From the NCBI GenBank assembly GCA_938018155.1, contig CALIIG010000129.1:1-18399 (forward strand): a stretch of 18,399 nucleotides of DNA, read 5' to 3'. Positions 745 to 10,704 of the stretch are shown one piece after another. Under the pieces are notes generated by a model that was given only the letters and a program-made list of their open reading frames with translations, was not told where the DNA came from and did not search any database. Origin of the DNA: an uncultured Prevotella sp. (GTDB lineage: Bacteria > Bacteroidota > Bacteroidia > Bacteroidales > Bacteroidaceae). Every line of letters begins with the position of its first letter. Position 1 is the first letter of the stretch. A program made the translations under genes and the position numbers.

Positions 745-778
745 CATGAAATTAATAATAAGGTATAAGTATTTTATA

Positions 779-3004
779 ATGTCTAAAAGGTTTACCGAGC
801 ATAATGGTCTTGACTTGACCAAGACTAATGAAGAGATATTGTCGTTGTGGAATAAAAATGATATTTTCCATAAGAGTATTGAAGAACGTAGAGGATGTCC
901 CAATTTTATCTTTTTTGAAGGGCCACCTTCTGCAAACGGTCATCCTGGCATTCATCATGTTTTAGCCCGTGCCATAAAAGATACTTTTAATAGGTACAAG
1001 ACCATGATGGGTTTCCATGTCTTGCGTAAAGCAGGCTGGGATACCCATGGCCTCCCCGTTGAATTGGGCGTTGAAAAAGAGCTTGGTATAACAAAGAAAG
1101 ATATTGATAATAAGGACTCTGATAAATATATTTCAGTAGAAGATTATAATCATAAGTGTCGTGAGAACGTCATGAAGTTTACACAAGAATGGCGTGAGCT
1201 TACAGAGAAGATGGGATATTTTGTGGATTTAGACCATCCTTATATTACTTATGATAACAAATATATTGAAACATTATGGTGGCTTTTAAAGCAACTTTAC
1301 AATAAGGGGCTGCTTTACAAAGGTTACACGATACAACCTTATTCACCTTCTGACGGTACAGGATTGTCGAGTCATGAATTAGCACAGCCTGGATGTTACC
1401 GGGATGTAAAAGATACTACGGTTACGGCACAATTCTTAATAAAAGATCCCAAACCATCTTGGAACAAAAATGGAAAACCATATTTTATAGCTTGGACAAC
1501 GACACCGTGGACACTTCCTTCAAATGTTGCACTATGTGTTGGCCCTAAGATAGACTATGTTGCTATTGAATCGTATAATCCTTATAATGGTGAACCGTTA
1601 ACAGTTATCATAGCAGAAAGTCGTGTTAATGCTTACTTCTCTCCTGAACAGGAAGTTAAGGATGGTAAGTTAGGAGCTTTTAATAAAGAAGAAAAAAAAT
1701 GTCCTTGGCGAATAGTTGACCATATGAAGGGTAAGGATCTTGAAGGTCTTCATTATGCTCAACTCATGCCATGGATAAAGCCATGTGAAAAGATAGGAGA
1801 GTATAGTTCTGCTTTTGTAAATGAATATGCTACAGCGCATCCGGATAAAGTGTTTAACGAACAAAATGGTGTAGATAAGTTCGTTGAAATGAGCGATAAT
1901 GCATTTCGAGTTATCTTAGGTGATTATGTAACGACCGAGGATGGAACAGGTATCGTTCATATTGCACCTACGTTTGGTGCAGATGATGCAAAGGTTGCTA
2001 AAGATGCTGGAATCCCTTCTTTGTATCTTATAAATAAAAAAGGAGAAACTCGTCCAATGGTAGACCTGCAAGGAAAGTATTATACCGTTGAAGAGTTGGA
2101 TTCTGCATTTATCAAATCTTGTGTTAATGTTGAATTATATAATCATCATGCTGGTGATTATGTGAAGAACTCCTATGCTCCCAAATATAATATTAATGGT
2201 GTTTGGAATAAAGAGCAGTCAGAGAAAGATGATGATTTGAATGTCATCATTTGTATGGAACTTAAACAGAATGGTCTTGCTTTTAAGATAGAAAAGCATA
2301 TACATAATTATCCTCATTCATGGCGTACAGACAAGCCCATATTATATTATCCTCTTGATAGTTGGTTTATTCGCGACACAAAGAAGAAGGATAGAATGGT
2401 TGCGCTGAATAAGACTATTCATTGGCATCCAGAATCAACCGGTACTGGCCGTTTTGGTAATTGGCTTGAAAATCTAAATGATTGGAATCTCTCTCGTTCA
2501 CGCTTCTGGGGCACTCCATTACCAATATGGCGAGATGAAGATAAGAATGAAAAGTGTATAGGTTCTATAGAAGAACTTTACACTGAAATTGAAAAGTCAG
2601 TTTCTGCAGGCGTTATGACTTCCAATCCATTAAAGGATAAAGACTTTATTGTGGGTGATTATAGTGAGAATAATTATAATAAGATTGATCTTCACCGTCC
2701 TTATATCGATTACGTTGTTTTGGTGAGTGATACAGGCAAGCCGATGTTTCGGGAAAGTGATCTTATTGATGTTTGGTTTGATTCTGGTTCAATGCCTTAT
2801 GCACAGTTGCATTATCCGTTTGAAGGTGACATTAACACAGAAGGACTCGAGAAAACAGGTTTGAAGGTGCCATTGATGAACCAGGGCTTAGGAGTACTGG
2901 ATTATCTGAAAATGAATACAGAGACGCACTTGTACATAGTTCTTATTCTGGTACTCCTATTGCCCCTGCATTCTTCCCTGCCGATTTTATTAATGAAGGA
3001 GTAG
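779..3004 (+). CDS. ileS: Isoleucyl-tRNA synthetase, N-terminal part (frame broken near 2894)
   Basis: This part encodes the catalytic Rossmann fold and the CP1 editing domain of isoleucyl-tRNA synthetase, which charges tRNA-Ile and hydrolyses mischarged Val-tRNA. From the ATG at 779 it starts MSKRFTEHNGLDL; the in-frame ATG at 746 lies upstream of the predicted transcript start. The class I signature is GPPSANGHPGIHH, with GIHH at residues 57-60 in place of HxGH, the altered form known in some eukaryote-type IleRS enzymes. The editing motif WTTTPWTLPSN is at about 239-249, and the core DVWFDSGSMPYAQ comes late. Authentic sequence runs to about residue 705 (GLG); the last ~36 codons to 3004 are an out-of-frame tail. 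The rest of the enzyme follows in another frame. Confidence 0.93.
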   Translation: MSKRFTEHNGLDLTKTNEEILSLWNKNDIFHKSIEERRGCPNFIFFEGPPSANGHPGIHHVLARAIKDTFNRYKTMMGFHVLRKAGWDTHGLPVELGVEKELGITKKDIDNKDSDKYISVEDYNHKCRENVMKFTQEWRELTEKMGYFVDLDHPYITYDNKYIETLWWLLKQLYNKGLLYKGYTIQPYSPSDGTGLSSHELAQPGCYRDVKDTTVTAQFLIKDPKPSWNKNGKPYFIAWTTTPWTLPSNVALCVGPKIDYVAIESYNPYNGEPLTVIIAESRVNAYFSPEQEVKDGKLGAFNKEEKKCPWRIVDHMKGKDLEGLHYAQLMPWIKPCEKIGEYSSAFVNEYATAHPDKVFNEQNGVDKFVEMSDNAFRVILGDYVTTEDGTGIVHIAPTFGADDAKVAKDAGIPSLYLINKKGETRPMVDLQGKYYTVEELDSAFIKSCVNVELYNHHAGDYVKNSYAPKYNINGVWNKEQSEKDDDLNVIICMELKQNGLAFKIEKHIHNYPHSWRTDKPILYYPLDSWFIRDTKKKDRMVALNKTIHWHPESTGTGRFGNWLENLNDWNLSRSRFWGTPLPIWRDEDKNEKCIGSIEELYTEIEKSVSAGVMTSNPLKDKDFIVGDYSENNYNKIDLHRPYIDYVVLVSDTGKPMFRESDLIDVWFDSGSMPYAQLHYPFEGDINTEGLEKTGLKVPLMNQGLGVLDYLKMNTETHLYIVLILVLLLPLHSSLPILLMKE
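2891..2896 (+). other. Frameshift point in ileS
   Basis: The protein reads sensibly in one frame through KVPLMNQGLG and in the next frame from TGLSENEYRDALVHSS onward. Restoring a single G so that GGAGT becomes GGAGGT joins both into GLGGTGLS and an open frame of about 1228 codons. No slippery heptamer or strong stimulatory hairpin is evident, so a lost base (real or a sequencing or assembly error) is more likely than programmed frameshifting. Confidence 0.8.
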
Positions 3005-4464
3005 ATCAAACTCGTGGATGGTTCTTTACGTTACATGCTATTGCAACTATGGTTTTCGATTCAGTTGCTTTTAAGAATGTAATTTCATCAGGACTTGTGC
3101 TTGATTCGAAGGGAAACAAAATGAGTAAACACGTTGGTAACGTTATCAATCCCTTTGAGATGATTGATAATTATGGTGCTGATGCTGTTCGATTTTATAT
3201 GTTGACTAACAGTGAGCCATGGGATAACTTAAAGTTCGATCAAAATGGTGTCGATGAATGCCGTCGTAAGTTTTTTGGTACATTATATAATACGTATAGT
3301 TTCTTTGCCCTTTATGCTAATGTTGATGGTTTTAATCCTAATCAACATACTTTTTCATCCTATATTAATGCCTTAACCGAAATAGATCGTTGGATTCTTT
3401 CAAGTCTTAATTCGCTGATTAAGCATGTTAAATGTGAATTAGACAACTACGATCCAACACGTGCTGGTCGTCTAATCGATTCCTTTGTGAATAACGATTT
3501 AAGTAATTGGTATGTCAGGCTTAATAGAAAACGTTTCTGGGGCAAAGAGATGAGTAATGATAAACTTGCTGCTTACTCTTCACTTTACACATGTTTACTT
3601 ACTATCTCAAAACTCCTTGCGCCTTTCGCACCTTTCTATGCGGATCAATTATATCATGATTTAGGAGGTAATAAAGAATCTGTTCATCTCGAAAAATTCC
3701 CGGAAATAGATTATACCCTTATTAATGAAGACCTTGAGAAGCGAATGGATATTGCGCAAAAAATTACATCTATGGTCCTTGCTCTTCGTAGAAAAGTGAA
3801 TATTAAAGTTCGGCAACCGCTACAACAAATTATGATTCCTGCAATAGATCAGGAACAGAAGGAACATATTGAAGCTGTAAAAGGCTTAATTCTGAACGAA
3901 GTAAATGTCAAAGAATTAAAGTTTGCAGAAGGCCAGGGGATTCTTGTTAAGAAAGTAAAGTGCAACTTCCGTATCATGGGTAAAAAATACGGCAGACAAA
4001 TGAAAGCCGTAGCAGCCAAGATGGAGAGCTTAACACAAGAAGAAATCACAGCCTTTGAAAAGCAGGGTACAATCTCTTTCCATGTAGATGATGATTTGAT
4101 TTCAGTTGATATTGATGATGTTGACATCATATCTGAAGATATTCCGGGTTGGCTTGTAAGTAACGATGGAAACATTACTGTCGCCTTAGAAGTAGAATTA
4201 ACTCCGGAACTCCGTAAGGAAGGTTTGGCTCGTGAGCTTATAAACCGAATACAGAATATGAGAAAAGATACGGGCTTAGATATTACGGATCGTATTGTTG
4301 TTACTGTAAGTCCATGTTCTGAAACTGACGAGGCTATAAAAGATTTCTCTAATTATATTATGTCTCAAGTTTTAGCCGATAATATCATTATTGCAAATAA
4401 CAAAGGTCCTGAAATAGAATTTGATCATTTTAATTTGAATATTCAAATTAGAAAAGTACAATAG
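2896..4464 (+). CDS. ileS: Isoleucyl-tRNA synthetase, C-terminal part (KMSKS region and anticodon-binding domain)
   Basis: This is the remainder of the enzyme in the -1 frame; the first ATG in this frame is at 3049, but IleRS sequence is recognisable from about 2896 (TGLSENEYRDALVHSS, then FFPADFINEGVDQTRGWFF). The second class I motif is KMSKH at 3118-3132, where KMSKS or KMSKR is usual. The anticodon-binding helical domain starts near DRWILSSLNSLIKHVK and includes NWYVRLNRKRFWG. A long C-terminal extension ends in NIQIRKVQ. Together with the upstream part the enzyme would be about 1228 residues, in the range of long Bacteroidetes IleRS proteins. As drawn it lacks a start codon; if the frameshift is genuine, neither piece alone would be an active synthetase. 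Confidence 0.9.
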   Translation, partial: TGLSENEYRDALVHSSYSGTPIAPAFFPADFINEGVDQTRGWFFTLHAIATMVFDSVAFKNVISSGLVLDSKGNKMSKHVGNVINPFEMIDNYGADAVRFYMLTNSEPWDNLKFDQNGVDECRRKFFGTLYNTYSFFALYANVDGFNPNQHTFSSYINALTEIDRWILSSLNSLIKHVKCELDNYDPTRAGRLIDSFVNNDLSNWYVRLNRKRFWGKEMSNDKLAAYSSLYTCLLTISKLLAPFAPFYADQLYHDLGGNKESVHLEKFPEIDYTLINEDLEKRMDIAQKITSMVLALRRKVNIKVRQPLQQIMIPAIDQEQKEHIEAVKGLILNEVNVKELKFAEGQGILVKKVKCNFRIMGKKYGRQMKAVAAKMESLTQEEITAFEKQGTISFHVDDDLISVDIDDVDIISEDIPGWLVSNDGNITVALEVELTPELRKEGLARELINRIQNMRKDTGLDITDRIVVTVSPCSETDEAIKDFSNYIMSQVLADNIIIANNKGPEIEFDHFNLNIQIRKVQ

Positions 4465-8643: not shown

Positions 8644-9093
8644 ATGGAGAAAATATTAAAAGATTTAATTTTAAGAAAGTTATTATTTTTATTCTTTTTA
8701 GTACTATTGACGACGAATGCAGCGAGTGCATCCGATTATCCAACGTCAAACACCATTGTTAATTGGGAGCCTGTAATAGCAGCAATCATACAGGTTGAGA
8801 GTGGCGGAAACCCGCAAGCCGTGAGCGGTAACTCTGTAGGAGCAATGCAAATTACACCTGTTCTGGTTGCGGAATGCAACAATATTCTTAAGACTCGCAA
8901 AAGCAAGAAGAGGTTTAAATTATCTGACCGGCTTAGCATTCAGAAGTCGAAGGAAATGTTTTTACTTATTCAGTCGAAGTATAATCCTTTAAATAGTATT
9001 GAGCATGCAATACGTTCGTGGAACGGTGGCATGCGTTACAGTAAGAGGAAAACGCAACATTATTTCAATAAAGTGATGAACTTTTTGAAGTAA
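8644..9093 (+). CDS. Small secreted lytic transglycosylase (SLT/goose-lysozyme-like fold)
   Basis: A 149-residue protein with a long signal peptide (hydrophobic 13-25, likely cleavage after ASA at 27-29) and a single transglycosylase domain that cuts peptidoglycan glycan strands. The SLT hallmarks are IIQVESGGNPQAVSGNSVGAMQITP, read as VESGGN (catalytic Glu52), AVS and GAMQ, and later AIRSWNGG near residues 122-129. It lacks the LysM or long helical domains of larger enzymes, so it is near the minimum size for the fold. No lipobox is present, suggesting a soluble periplasmic enzyme. It is a single-gene unit with its own promoter and a strong terminator immediately after the stop. The substrate is inferred from the family. 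Confidence 0.88.
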   Translation: MEKILKDLILRKLLFLFFLVLLTTNAASASDYPTSNTIVNWEPVIAAIIQVESGGNPQAVSGNSVGAMQITPVLVAECNNILKTRKSKKRFKLSDRLSIQKSKEMFLLIQSKYNPLNSIEHAIRSWNGGMRYSKRKTQHYFNKVMNFLK

Positions 9094-9099
9094 AATTTT

Positions 9100-9140
9100 A
9101 AAAGGAGCCTGTCGTTACATGACAATGCTCCTTTTCTTTT
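9100..9140 (+). terminator. Strong intrinsic terminator of the transglycosylase gene
   Basis: AAAAGGAGC (9100-9108) pairs perfectly with GCTCCTTTT (9127-9135), with an inner TGTC/GACA extension, and TTTTCTTTT follows. It starts 7 bases after the stop codon. Confidence 0.85.
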
Positions 9141-9198
9141 GCCTGTTCTCTTAATGATTAAGCACTTTGTTGTGTGACAATTACGTAATAACGGTGGC

Positions 9199-9285
9199 TG
9201 TTCGACGGCCGTCAGCAGCGTTGCTGACGATCGTCGAACAATGCGTATGACGGCCGTCGTATGCGCTGCTGACGGCCGTCGAACA
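9199..9285. repeat. Regular cluster of four GC-rich palindromic cores inside a 22-bp inverted repeat
   Basis: Four copies of a 10-bp palindrome occur at 9204-9213, 9226-9235, 9249-9258 and 9271-9280. Three are GACGGCCGTC and the second is GACGATCGTC. Their starts are 22, 23 and 22 bases apart. Flanks are TGTTC/GAACA on one side and AGCA/TGCT on the other, so copies 2 and 4 are inverted relative to copy 1; copy 3 has CGTAT-type flanks. The outer 22 bases (9199-9220) are the exact reverse complement of 9264-9285, and 9199-9217 also pairs with 9222-9240 around a GCGT loop with only the two central core positions imperfect. It lies between two convergent terminators. Confidence 0.9.
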
Positions 9286-9304
9286 CTCAGAGAATTGATG
9301 TAAA

Positions 9305-9337
9305 GACAGAAAAAAGCAGGGATAATATCTCTGCTTT
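9305..9337 (-). terminator. Terminator of the glycine cleavage operon
   Basis: On the minus strand AAAGCAG pairs with CTGCTTT with an inner GAT/ATC extension after one mismatch, and the transcript continues into a run of six T. It lies about 33 bases past the lpd stop and faces the transglycosylase terminator. Confidence 0.75.
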
Positions 9338-9369
9338 CATAAGGTAATCTTTATTGAAACCGGATGTGC

Positions 9370-10659
9370 TTATTGCCGTGCAAGGTCCTGCAACACCTCG
9401 GCTATGGTAGGATGAATGTGCACAATATCGGCCAGACGGGTACGTGTAGCACCCAAATTCATCAAGCATGCCACCTCCTGTACAATATCTGCTGCATGGC
9501 AACCATAGGCATGACAGCCGATAATGGTATCGCTTTCATTGGTTACGAGTTTCACCATACCCTCATCAGCCTCCATGGCTACGGCTCTTCCGTTGGCCCT
9601 GTAAAAGCCTTTTCGTTCCTGCGCATTCAGCCCTTGTTCCTGCGCCATTTGCATGTTCATACCTGCGCATGCTGTTTCAGGATTGGTAAAAACGGCTGCG
9701 GGCATAATGTTTAAATTGATATGGTCGGCCTTTCCCAATATTGAATTAACGGCTTTAAATCCCTGAAAGGTCGCCGCATGGGCGAGGAGCTGACGCCCGT
9801 TGCAGTCGCCAATGGCGTAAATATGGGGTATATTTGTTCGCATATTGTCGTCAACAATTATCCCTTTGGGCGTAAAATCAATGCCAGTATTCTCAAGTCC
9901 TAAGTCCGTAAGGTTGGCAACACGGCCCGTTGATATCATCGTCAGATCGTTTTTTACGCTGTTTTCATGCCCCCTTTTGTCTTCAAAGTGCACCTCCGTT
10001 TCTGTAATTTGCGTTACTTTGCACGACAAATGGAAATCAATTCCACGCCGTTCCATCTGCTTTCTGACACGTTTTGCAATGTCATTATCGAAGTTATTGA
10101 GGCACTCTTTTAAGTATTCTATCACCGTTACCTTGCATCCGAAACGATTAAGCAAGGATGCAAATTCCATCCCTATAACTCCGGCACCAATGATACACAG
10201 GCTTTTGGGAAGCTCTTTGAGCGATAACAGCTGGTTGCTGGTGATGACATGGGGTAGCTCTGAGCCCGCTATCGGCGGGAGAGCCGGGCGTGAACCCGTT
10301 GCAATAATAATATTATGTGCGGTATATAACGCTTCACCCACCATAACGGTATGTGCATCTTTAAACCTGGCATGGCCATTGACCCGTGTTATTCCTTGTT
10401 GCGACAGTAAGCCTTCTACACCTTTTGCAAGCTGCTCAACCACCTCGTCTTTACGCCTTATGGCTTCAGCCCAGGTGCGTTTCTGCAAGTTTGCATCGTG
10501 TGCAAGGGCCTTGGTGGGAATGCATCCTGTGTTAAGGCAGGTACCTCCGGCCTGTTTACTTTCAATAATTGTGACGCTTAGGCCGTTACGTGCGGCGTAA
10601 TCGGCAGCGCGATAACCACCAGGACCGCTGCCGATAATAATTAAATCGGATGTAAACAT
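9370..10659 (-). CDS. lpdA: Dihydrolipoyl dehydrogenase (L protein)
   Basis: This FAD enzyme reoxidises the dihydrolipoyl arm of GcvH using NAD. I chose the ATG at 10659 because it puts DLIIIGSGPGGYRAAD at the very N-terminus as in homologues; a longer frame to 10695 adds 12 atypical residues. Visible are the FAD-binding GSGPGG (10-15), the redox disulfide in GGTCLNTGCIPTK (C41 and C46), the NAD-binding GAGVIGMEFA, the second FAD motif IYAIGD, and the C-terminal HIHPTIAE with the His-Glu active-site pair. At 429 residues it is shorter than the usual 460-475. Being last in the gcv operon, its main role is probably glycine cleavage, though it could also serve other 2-oxoacid complexes. Confidence 0.94.
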   Translation of the reverse strand: MFTSDLIIIGSGPGGYRAADYAARNGLSVTIIESKQAGGTCLNTGCIPTKALAHDANLQKRTWAEAIRRKDEVVEQLAKGVEGLLSQQGITRVNGHARFKDAHTVMVGEALYTAHNIIIATGSRPALPPIAGSELPHVITSNQLLSLKELPKSLCIIGAGVIGMEFASLLNRFGCKVTVIEYLKECLNNFDNDIAKRVRKQMERRGIDFHLSCKVTQITETEVHFEDKRGHENSVKNDLTMISTGRVANLTDLGLENTGIDFTPKGIIVDDNMRTNIPHIYAIGDCNGRQLLAHAATFQGFKAVNSILGKADHINLNIMPAAVFTNPETACAGMNMQMAQEQGLNAQERKGFYRANGRAVAMEADEGMVKLVTNESDTIIGCHAYGCHAADIVQEVACLMNLGATRTRLADIVHIHPTIAEVLQDLARQ

Positions 10660-10704
10660 TTGTGTTATGAAATGGGGAAAAGGATATGAAAACAAATATA
10701 AAAT

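Follow-up and report, generated by a model that had tools for sequence, protein, structure and literature searches.

The 87-bp segment at 9199..9285 of the window (the whole 18,399-nucleotide stretch of DNA analysed here) is best explained as a copy of a non-coding element of the REP/BIME/MITE-like kind, dispersed between genes, the units of which would be phased dyad sites for a putative dimeric DNA-binding protein, acting at the DNA level. We put the probability of this reading at about 0.5. The helical phase, the palindromic cores, the mirror-image ends, the intergenic location and the dispersal in multiple copies are all observed. Each core would be a double-stranded DNA site for a dimeric protein of the TetR or HTH type, and the two-turn phase would place neighbouring dimers on the same helical face. 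As a whole, the array would serve either as a nucleoid or regulatory platform or as the ends of a non-autonomous mobile element, in each case as DNA and not as a folded RNA.

The array in the window, which has relatives with the same architecture, contains four cores found by pattern matching, all without strand assignment. Cores 1 (9204..9213), 3 (9249..9258) and 4 (9271..9280) are GACGGCCGTC, and core 2 (9226..9235) is GACGATCGTC. Starting at 9204, 9226, 9249 and 9271, all are perfect 10-bp palindromes, and they are spaced 22, 23 and 22 bp apart as had been described in an earlier reading made from the sequence alone (the sequence-only reading). The window has four matches to GACGNNCGTC against 0.09 expected, and none of 200 dinucleotide shuffles of the whole window reaches four. 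When the 87 nucleotides are shuffled, 10-bp palindromes number 0.28 on average, and at least four appear in 1 of 1000 shuffles. The outer 22 bases form an exact inverted repeat, also as described: the left terminal repeat (9199..9220, + strand) is 22/22 identical to the reverse complement of the right one (9264..9285, - strand), and the ends are the mirror-image pair TGTTCGACG/CGTCGAACA. The left arm can indeed pair with two right arms, exactly with 9264-9285 and, through 9199-9217, at 89% with 9222-9240. The orientation of copies 1, 2 and 4 had been called alternating; copy 1 is opposite to copies 2 and 4, but the latter two point the same way, so there is no strict alternation. The GC content is 0.58 at 9200-9299, higher than in the adjacent surroundings (0.39 at 9100-9199 and 0.41 at 9300-9399), as claimed; in the lpd gene beyond, it is about 0.5.

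The non-coding gap that holds the array lies between convergent genes, in agreement with the sequence-only reading. The left neighbour (8644..9093, + strand) encodes a transglycosylase SLT-domain protein, and the right neighbour (9370..10695, - strand) is a dihydrolipoamide dehydrogenase-like gene (lpd) beside gcvP/gcvH/gcvT. Outside the array, terminator-like hairpins with T-runs were recognised by eye downstream of the SLT gene (9100..9140, + strand; stem 9100-9108/9127-9135) and downstream of lpd (9310..9337, - strand; stem 9313-9319/9331-9337). A hairpin scan of the window lists neither of them because their loops exceed the accepted 3-8 nucleotides. As it sits between two terminators, the array is probably little transcribed.

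The window proteins reach 98-99% identity to proteins without an organism name. Among the matches listed, the five named ones to the SLT protein are from three Prevotella (64-67%), Marseilla massiliensis (63%) and Bacteroides heparinolyticus (77% over 83% of the query), and the seven named ones to GcvT are from six Prevotella (69-72%) and one Muribaculaceae (70%). No close relative was found: the nearest lpd among 393 genomes is 49-51% identical and the nearest SLT among 349 genomes is 66% identical. Based on these SLT, GcvT and lpd identities, the window lineage is considered to be Prevotella-like and close to no searched genome. The best SLT match in the 349 genomes is in G673, and the genus of G673 and G840 is for this reason taken to be Prevotella-like.

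In the other genomes (G numbers; loci are given as L numbers), the element usually consists of two to five units of 21-23 bp in a short array; every unit has a RACGNNCGTY palindromic core, and mirror-image half-units close the array. The arrays read in G770 and G791 have three units, some of them degenerate. Three units are also seen in 7 of 8 arrays in G840 (the other has four) and in 8 of 9 in G109 (the other has seven). G742 shows two to seven units, G766 two to four, and G156 up to twelve. Core and end sequences differ between species. The core is mostly GACGGCCGTC in G840, G791 and G920, GACGTAGGTC-like in G770, AACGNNCGTT in G766 and mostly AACGTTCGTT in G774. Most copies have mirror ends, TGGTCAAACG/CGTTTGACCA in G774, G811 and G742 and AATGTGAAACG/CGTTTCACATT in G766. 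Outer boxes near GGAAAGAG/CTCTTTCC were recognised by eye in G109, and all 10 arrays of G774 and G811 are flanked on one or both sides by a T-rich box 15 nt beyond the last CGTT. Of 55 cores in G766, 49 have a purine-pyrimidine step as the central dinucleotide, which the search pattern leaves free; TT/AA dominates in G774, and thus a purine-pyrimidine centre is not general. By eye, most of the changes in the degenerate cores at the G791 loci (L111-L116, L070 and L071) replace C by T or G by A at the two CpGs within GACGGCCGTC; deamination of methylated C could be the cause.

The family was counted with the reversed pattern as a control. The core motif is built into the search patterns, and core conservation is biased accordingly; the spacing and the central dinucleotide are free of this bias. 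Of the 393 genomes searched in the order, two contain the exact two-core GACGNNCGTC pattern, at five places in G033 and in one tandem repeat in G324, with no excess over the control (9 forward against 7 control matches). Among 150 genomes of the genus, with a gap of 9-16, there are 34 matches in nine genomes, 15 of them in G840, and 11 control matches, never more than two per genome. With a fixed 22-bp period and up to two mismatches in 15 genomes, forward matches exceed control matches in G840 (30 versus 3), G770 (24 versus 3), G742 (18 versus 4), G825 (12 versus 6) and G791 (11 versus 0); the remaining ten genomes, including G774 (7 versus 8), are not clearly above the control. From this set eight G840 loci, those from the exact two-core searches, were read, and three places in G770 and three in G825 (C41, C33 and C50:209) were left out as unlike arrays. 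Pairs of RACGNNCGTY with a gap of 9-15 occur at least once in 63 of 398 genomes, many with a single match, and the control also matches many genomes, up to seven times in one. The pairs are strongly multi-copy in G766 (39), G742 (22), G774 (17), G840 (15) and G811 (11), where the control gives 0 or 1. In this set, loci were read from G811, G920, G1037, G950 (2), G814 (2), G752 and G1109, and G784, G930, G1007, G835 and the single-match genomes were left unread. A three-core pattern in 157 genomes of the order was found in G840 (7), G109 (13, period 22) and G156 (23, period 21) alone, with a single control match apiece in two further genomes. Between 8 and 16 array loci were read per genome in the richest genomes. 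The motif is missing from most genomes searched, and a housekeeping role of the arrays is therefore unlikely.

Within one family of one genome, the cores keep a fixed helical phase. With any gap between 0 and 30 accepted, 100 relatives of G840 yielded 27 core pairs in six genomes, of which 22 were at exactly 22 bp, and the control gave 10 matches; the other five pairs, all in G033, were at 21 or 23 bp. In the 150-genome search, 27 of 34 pairs are at 22 bp. All 39 pairs of G766 are at 23 bp, with gaps of 9-15 allowed. G774 has seven pairs at 22 bp and ten at 23 bp, mixed within arrays like the 22/23/22 of the window. The period is not universal, being 21 bp in G950 and G156 and 23 bp in G821 and G766. 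A fixed spacing of whole turns is present without being imposed by the search, and families with 21 bp also exist. Outside the cores, autocorrelation indicates that further 22-bp units continue the phase in G770 (peaks at lag 22, z 3.5, and at 44). A weak peak at 22 (z 2.8) is seen in G791, where one of eight loci was misregistered by one unit (its register is correct in the arm-pairing test described below), and no such periodicity was seen in G840 or G742.

A phased protein-binding site was one of the proposals of the sequence-only reading, and a phased dyad site for a putative binder is the likeliest unit; the spacing is conserved in relatives. The nearest operator for comparison is that of TthPaaR, a TetR-family protein of Thermus. 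According to the accessible text of two reports (PMC9493321, PMC6651687), TthPaaR binds CNAACGNNCGTTNG at ~1 nM; this operator has the same AACGNNCGTT core with a free central dinucleotide. It differs in that the TthPaaR operators lie at two paa promoters and are not dispersed phased arrays. Several points count against the binding-site reading: tandem duplication of one unit alone could yield a fixed period, the window holds a single array copy, the period differs between genomes, and most genomes lack the motif. A more specific form can be conjectured, in which a rapidly co-evolving nucleoid or segregation protein loads or is anchored, across the genome, at the chromosomal phased-dyad arrays of Bacteroidales with their species-specific versions of the ACGNNCGT core, the place being kept and the core rewritten in concert across copies; we consider it distinctly unlikely.

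The position of 83 arrays was compared with simple longest-ORF calls, and 76 of them (40/43 plus 36/40) were classifiable: 36 are between tandem, 26 between convergent and 14 between divergent genes. Nine arrays were flagged as overlapping a called ORF. With 26 of 76 convergent, location between convergent genes, which the sequence-only reading had suggested looking for, is not the rule. The neighbouring genes are mostly ordinary ones such as thyA, ispH, cobS, an FtsZ-family gene and a VapE/HU-HIG pair. No shared function of flanking genes was seen; among 20 scanned proteins, 17 are above the Pfam cut-off and most are unrelated housekeeping proteins. Neighbours common to arrays of different species are ispH (three genomes), a PALP gene (two) and the SLT gene (the window and G1109), which we estimate to be about the chance level for so many pairs. 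In G1109 (C2, L183; a 772-kb contig), the array at 1216-1247 is followed by an SLT gene at 1790-2359, 54% identical to the left neighbour in the window. The array lies upstream of the gene there, not downstream, and the common neighbour may be a coincidence.

Two cases fit maintenance of place with change of the core. L063 in G840 and L071 in G791 are an orthologous place, where both flanks match and the shared neighbour is 82% identical. In the other case, arrays of G770 and G811 with different cores occupy the same gap between collinear genes, G770 having an additional gene there. L061/L115 was rejected as a second orthologous pair, as its shared neighbour is 42% identical compared with 82% for L063/L071, and is probably a paralogue; losing this pair made the conjectured genome-wide anchoring role less likely.

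The arrays could instead be non-autonomous mobile elements, MITEs or minisatellites within MITEs, whose ends are recognised by a transposase and whose units are expanded tandem repeats without a cellular role. The mirror-image ends with outer boxes (in G109, and the T-rich box in G774 and G811), the dispersed copies with varying unit numbers, and the 241 bp shared at 89% by two G770 copies are what such an element would leave. The orthologous place in G840 and G791 speaks against mobility, as does the window element, which has no match in plasmid or phage records; one G774 array has no match in plasmids and one G766 array none in phages. On this evidence we regard the mobile-element explanation as possible and somewhat unlikely.

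BrickBuilt, a minisatellite MITE of Porphyromonas gingivalis with 19 dispersed copies in ATCC 33277, appears to be the nearest described element found in the order. According to the portion of its description available to us (PMC4596501), it is likewise a Bacteroidales element, always intergenic, with a 23-nt period, inverted-repeat end segments and varying unit number; dispersed intergenic copies with inverted-repeat ends are found here, too. In that same portion, however, its unit AGAYCATARTATCCTCTCRTRTG lacks the ACGNNCGT palindrome, is repeated directly up to 22.8 times, and is accompanied by a long leader and tail, and its TIRs match IS5-family elements (PMC4596501). The unit AGAYCATARTATCCTCTCRTRTG has no exact match on either strand of the 285 sequences examined.

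Another explanation is a structured RNA, a transcription terminator or an mRNA-stabilising hairpin (a REP in the 3' UTR). The predicted fold of 9190-9295 is strong, -67 kcal/mol (z -8.9) as RNA and -38.1 (z -6.8) as DNA. Any mirror-symmetric sequence folds so. If pairing were selected, the own arms of an element should beat arms swapped in from other copies. In this comparison, from which L110 (G840, four units) and L278 (G109, seven units) were left out, there was no significant excess of own-arm covariation in G770 (11 arrays), G791 (8) or G840 (7/8), the best P value being 0.07 for core 1 with core 3 in G770. The spacer arms of G766 (39 spacers in 16 arrays) pair below swapped arms (P<=0.0016). 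This deficit is driven by one position: 24 of 39 spacers have C/C or G/G there, and 7 have a Watson-Crick pair compared with 17.1 expected; the whole G766 arrays are also lower, not significantly (P<=0.07 and 0.18). The arms of G109 (8 of 9 arrays) pair below swapped arms as well (P<=0.0072), and its outer box does not. Copies are mirror-symmetric on average and individually avoid perfect palindromes, although tandem duplication of an asymmetric unit gives the same sign of deficit, and this is no proof of selection against palindromes. The results argue against a selected RNA or cruciform stem, and the small structured RNA offered by the sequence-only reading is not borne out.

The ten arrays of G774 and G811 do fit terminators: 7 are convergent, 3 tandem and none divergent, and they are flanked by T-rich boxes. 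Divergent placement is nevertheless common in G791 (6/8) and G109 (5/9), and in the window the array itself lies between two terminators. Rfam searches at the gathering score gave no match in the window and seven relative loci, and Rfam and tRNA searches of the window overall gave none. As a general account the terminator reading was rejected, as it fits G774 and G811 only, and the RNA and hairpin explanations together are improbable.

The arrays share short, clustered and partly inverted intergenic palindromes with REP/BIME elements and with GTAG- and CGTC-tagged REPs, and many small intergenic palindromic units are present in the relatives. From what is accessible of the source on tagged REPs (PMC3733652), there are CGTC families without a transposase, in which heterodimers are often preferred over homodimers, resembling the imperfect self-pairing of the arrays. 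Those REPs are described there as an unpaired CGTC tag, an 8-9-bp stem, a 4-5-nt loop and a tail (PMC3733652), in contrast to the arrays, whose CGTC belongs to the core palindrome itself and whose hallmark is the fixed 22/23-bp phase. When units were inspected by eye for the tagged-REP structure, CGTC was within the core, spacers were 11-13 nt, and no CCA tail was seen.

A REP/BIME system mobilised by a RAYT (TnpA-REP) transposase would leave small, clustered, partly inverted intergenic palindromes, and the accessible part of one report (PMC6006769) describes a TnpA-REP subclass of Bacteroidetes whose flanking structures are atypical. A Y1_Tnp match lies on the same contig as an array in G825 (4.5 kb away) and in G742 (6.4 kb). 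However, 11 of 15 genomes have a Y1_Tnp match, array-poor ones among them, and array-rich G840 has none. Ten Y1_Tnp loci (L081-L090; eight further matches are outside this count) have no 21-23-bp phased cores; at L083, three loose core matches fall in a 24-bp tandem repeat. At L081, L083, L084, L088 and L089, one Y1_Tnp locus from each of five array genomes, there is no array copy, and the array matches are 12-23 nt only, to sequence outside the cores. Of the REP/BIME-like family in the sequence-only reading, the dispersed intergenic family with conserved core spacing in Prevotella-like genomes therefore stands, and the transposase partner does not, as no Y1 transposase locus read is flanked by arrays; a RAYT origin is very unlikely. 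A chance local duplication in one genome, which the single copy in 18.4 kb would allow and which the sequence-only reading would have favoured had the cluster been found nowhere else and its spacing not conserved, is extremely unlikely and is refuted as a general account, as other genomes carry many copies with the same core, spacing and mirror ends.

Prevotella-like bacteria are dominant in guts and rumens, and their intergenic repeats seem little described; among the titles listed in searches of the openly accessible literature, none describes such arrays. Repeats recognised by their helical phase and by a palindromic core peculiar to each species would be a bait for a new DNA-binding protein, and such arrays allow selfish elements to be tested against binding platforms.

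Similar palindromes are observed in viral sequences. In 58 uncultured viral stretches (L204-L261), AACGNNCGTT palindromes are repeated mostly at 11 or 22 bp, that is, at one or two helical turns, and the majority are 11-bp repeats. Two examples (L245:1529-1582 and L251:7633-7686) are inside near-identical ORFs, with a DUF1376 gene in L245. Phage initiator genes, lambda O for example, can contain replication iterons, and the viral palindromes are presumably iterons of this kind. They differ from the arrays in being coding at the two loci read and in having unrelated hosts. Five earlier viral matches were rejected as arrays; all are simple tandem repeats of 21-24 bp, and four are GC-rich.

Several minor features were observed along the way. 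In the window, ileS (746-4464) occupies two separate ORFs, at 746-3004 and at 3049-4464, which match consecutive parts of one synthetase; this is a frameshift or a sequencing error. A broken kinase gene was ruled out, as its frame is open to the edge of the window. Near many arrays of G840 (L061-L067 and L110) there is another dispersed palindromic repeat, GTCACGCCTAAC...GTTAGGCGTGAC. Contig C152 of G156 carries two long 21-bp arrays (L283 and L284) of at least 12 AACGTTCGTT/AACGAACGTT units, one near each end of the 55-kb contig and in opposite orientation.
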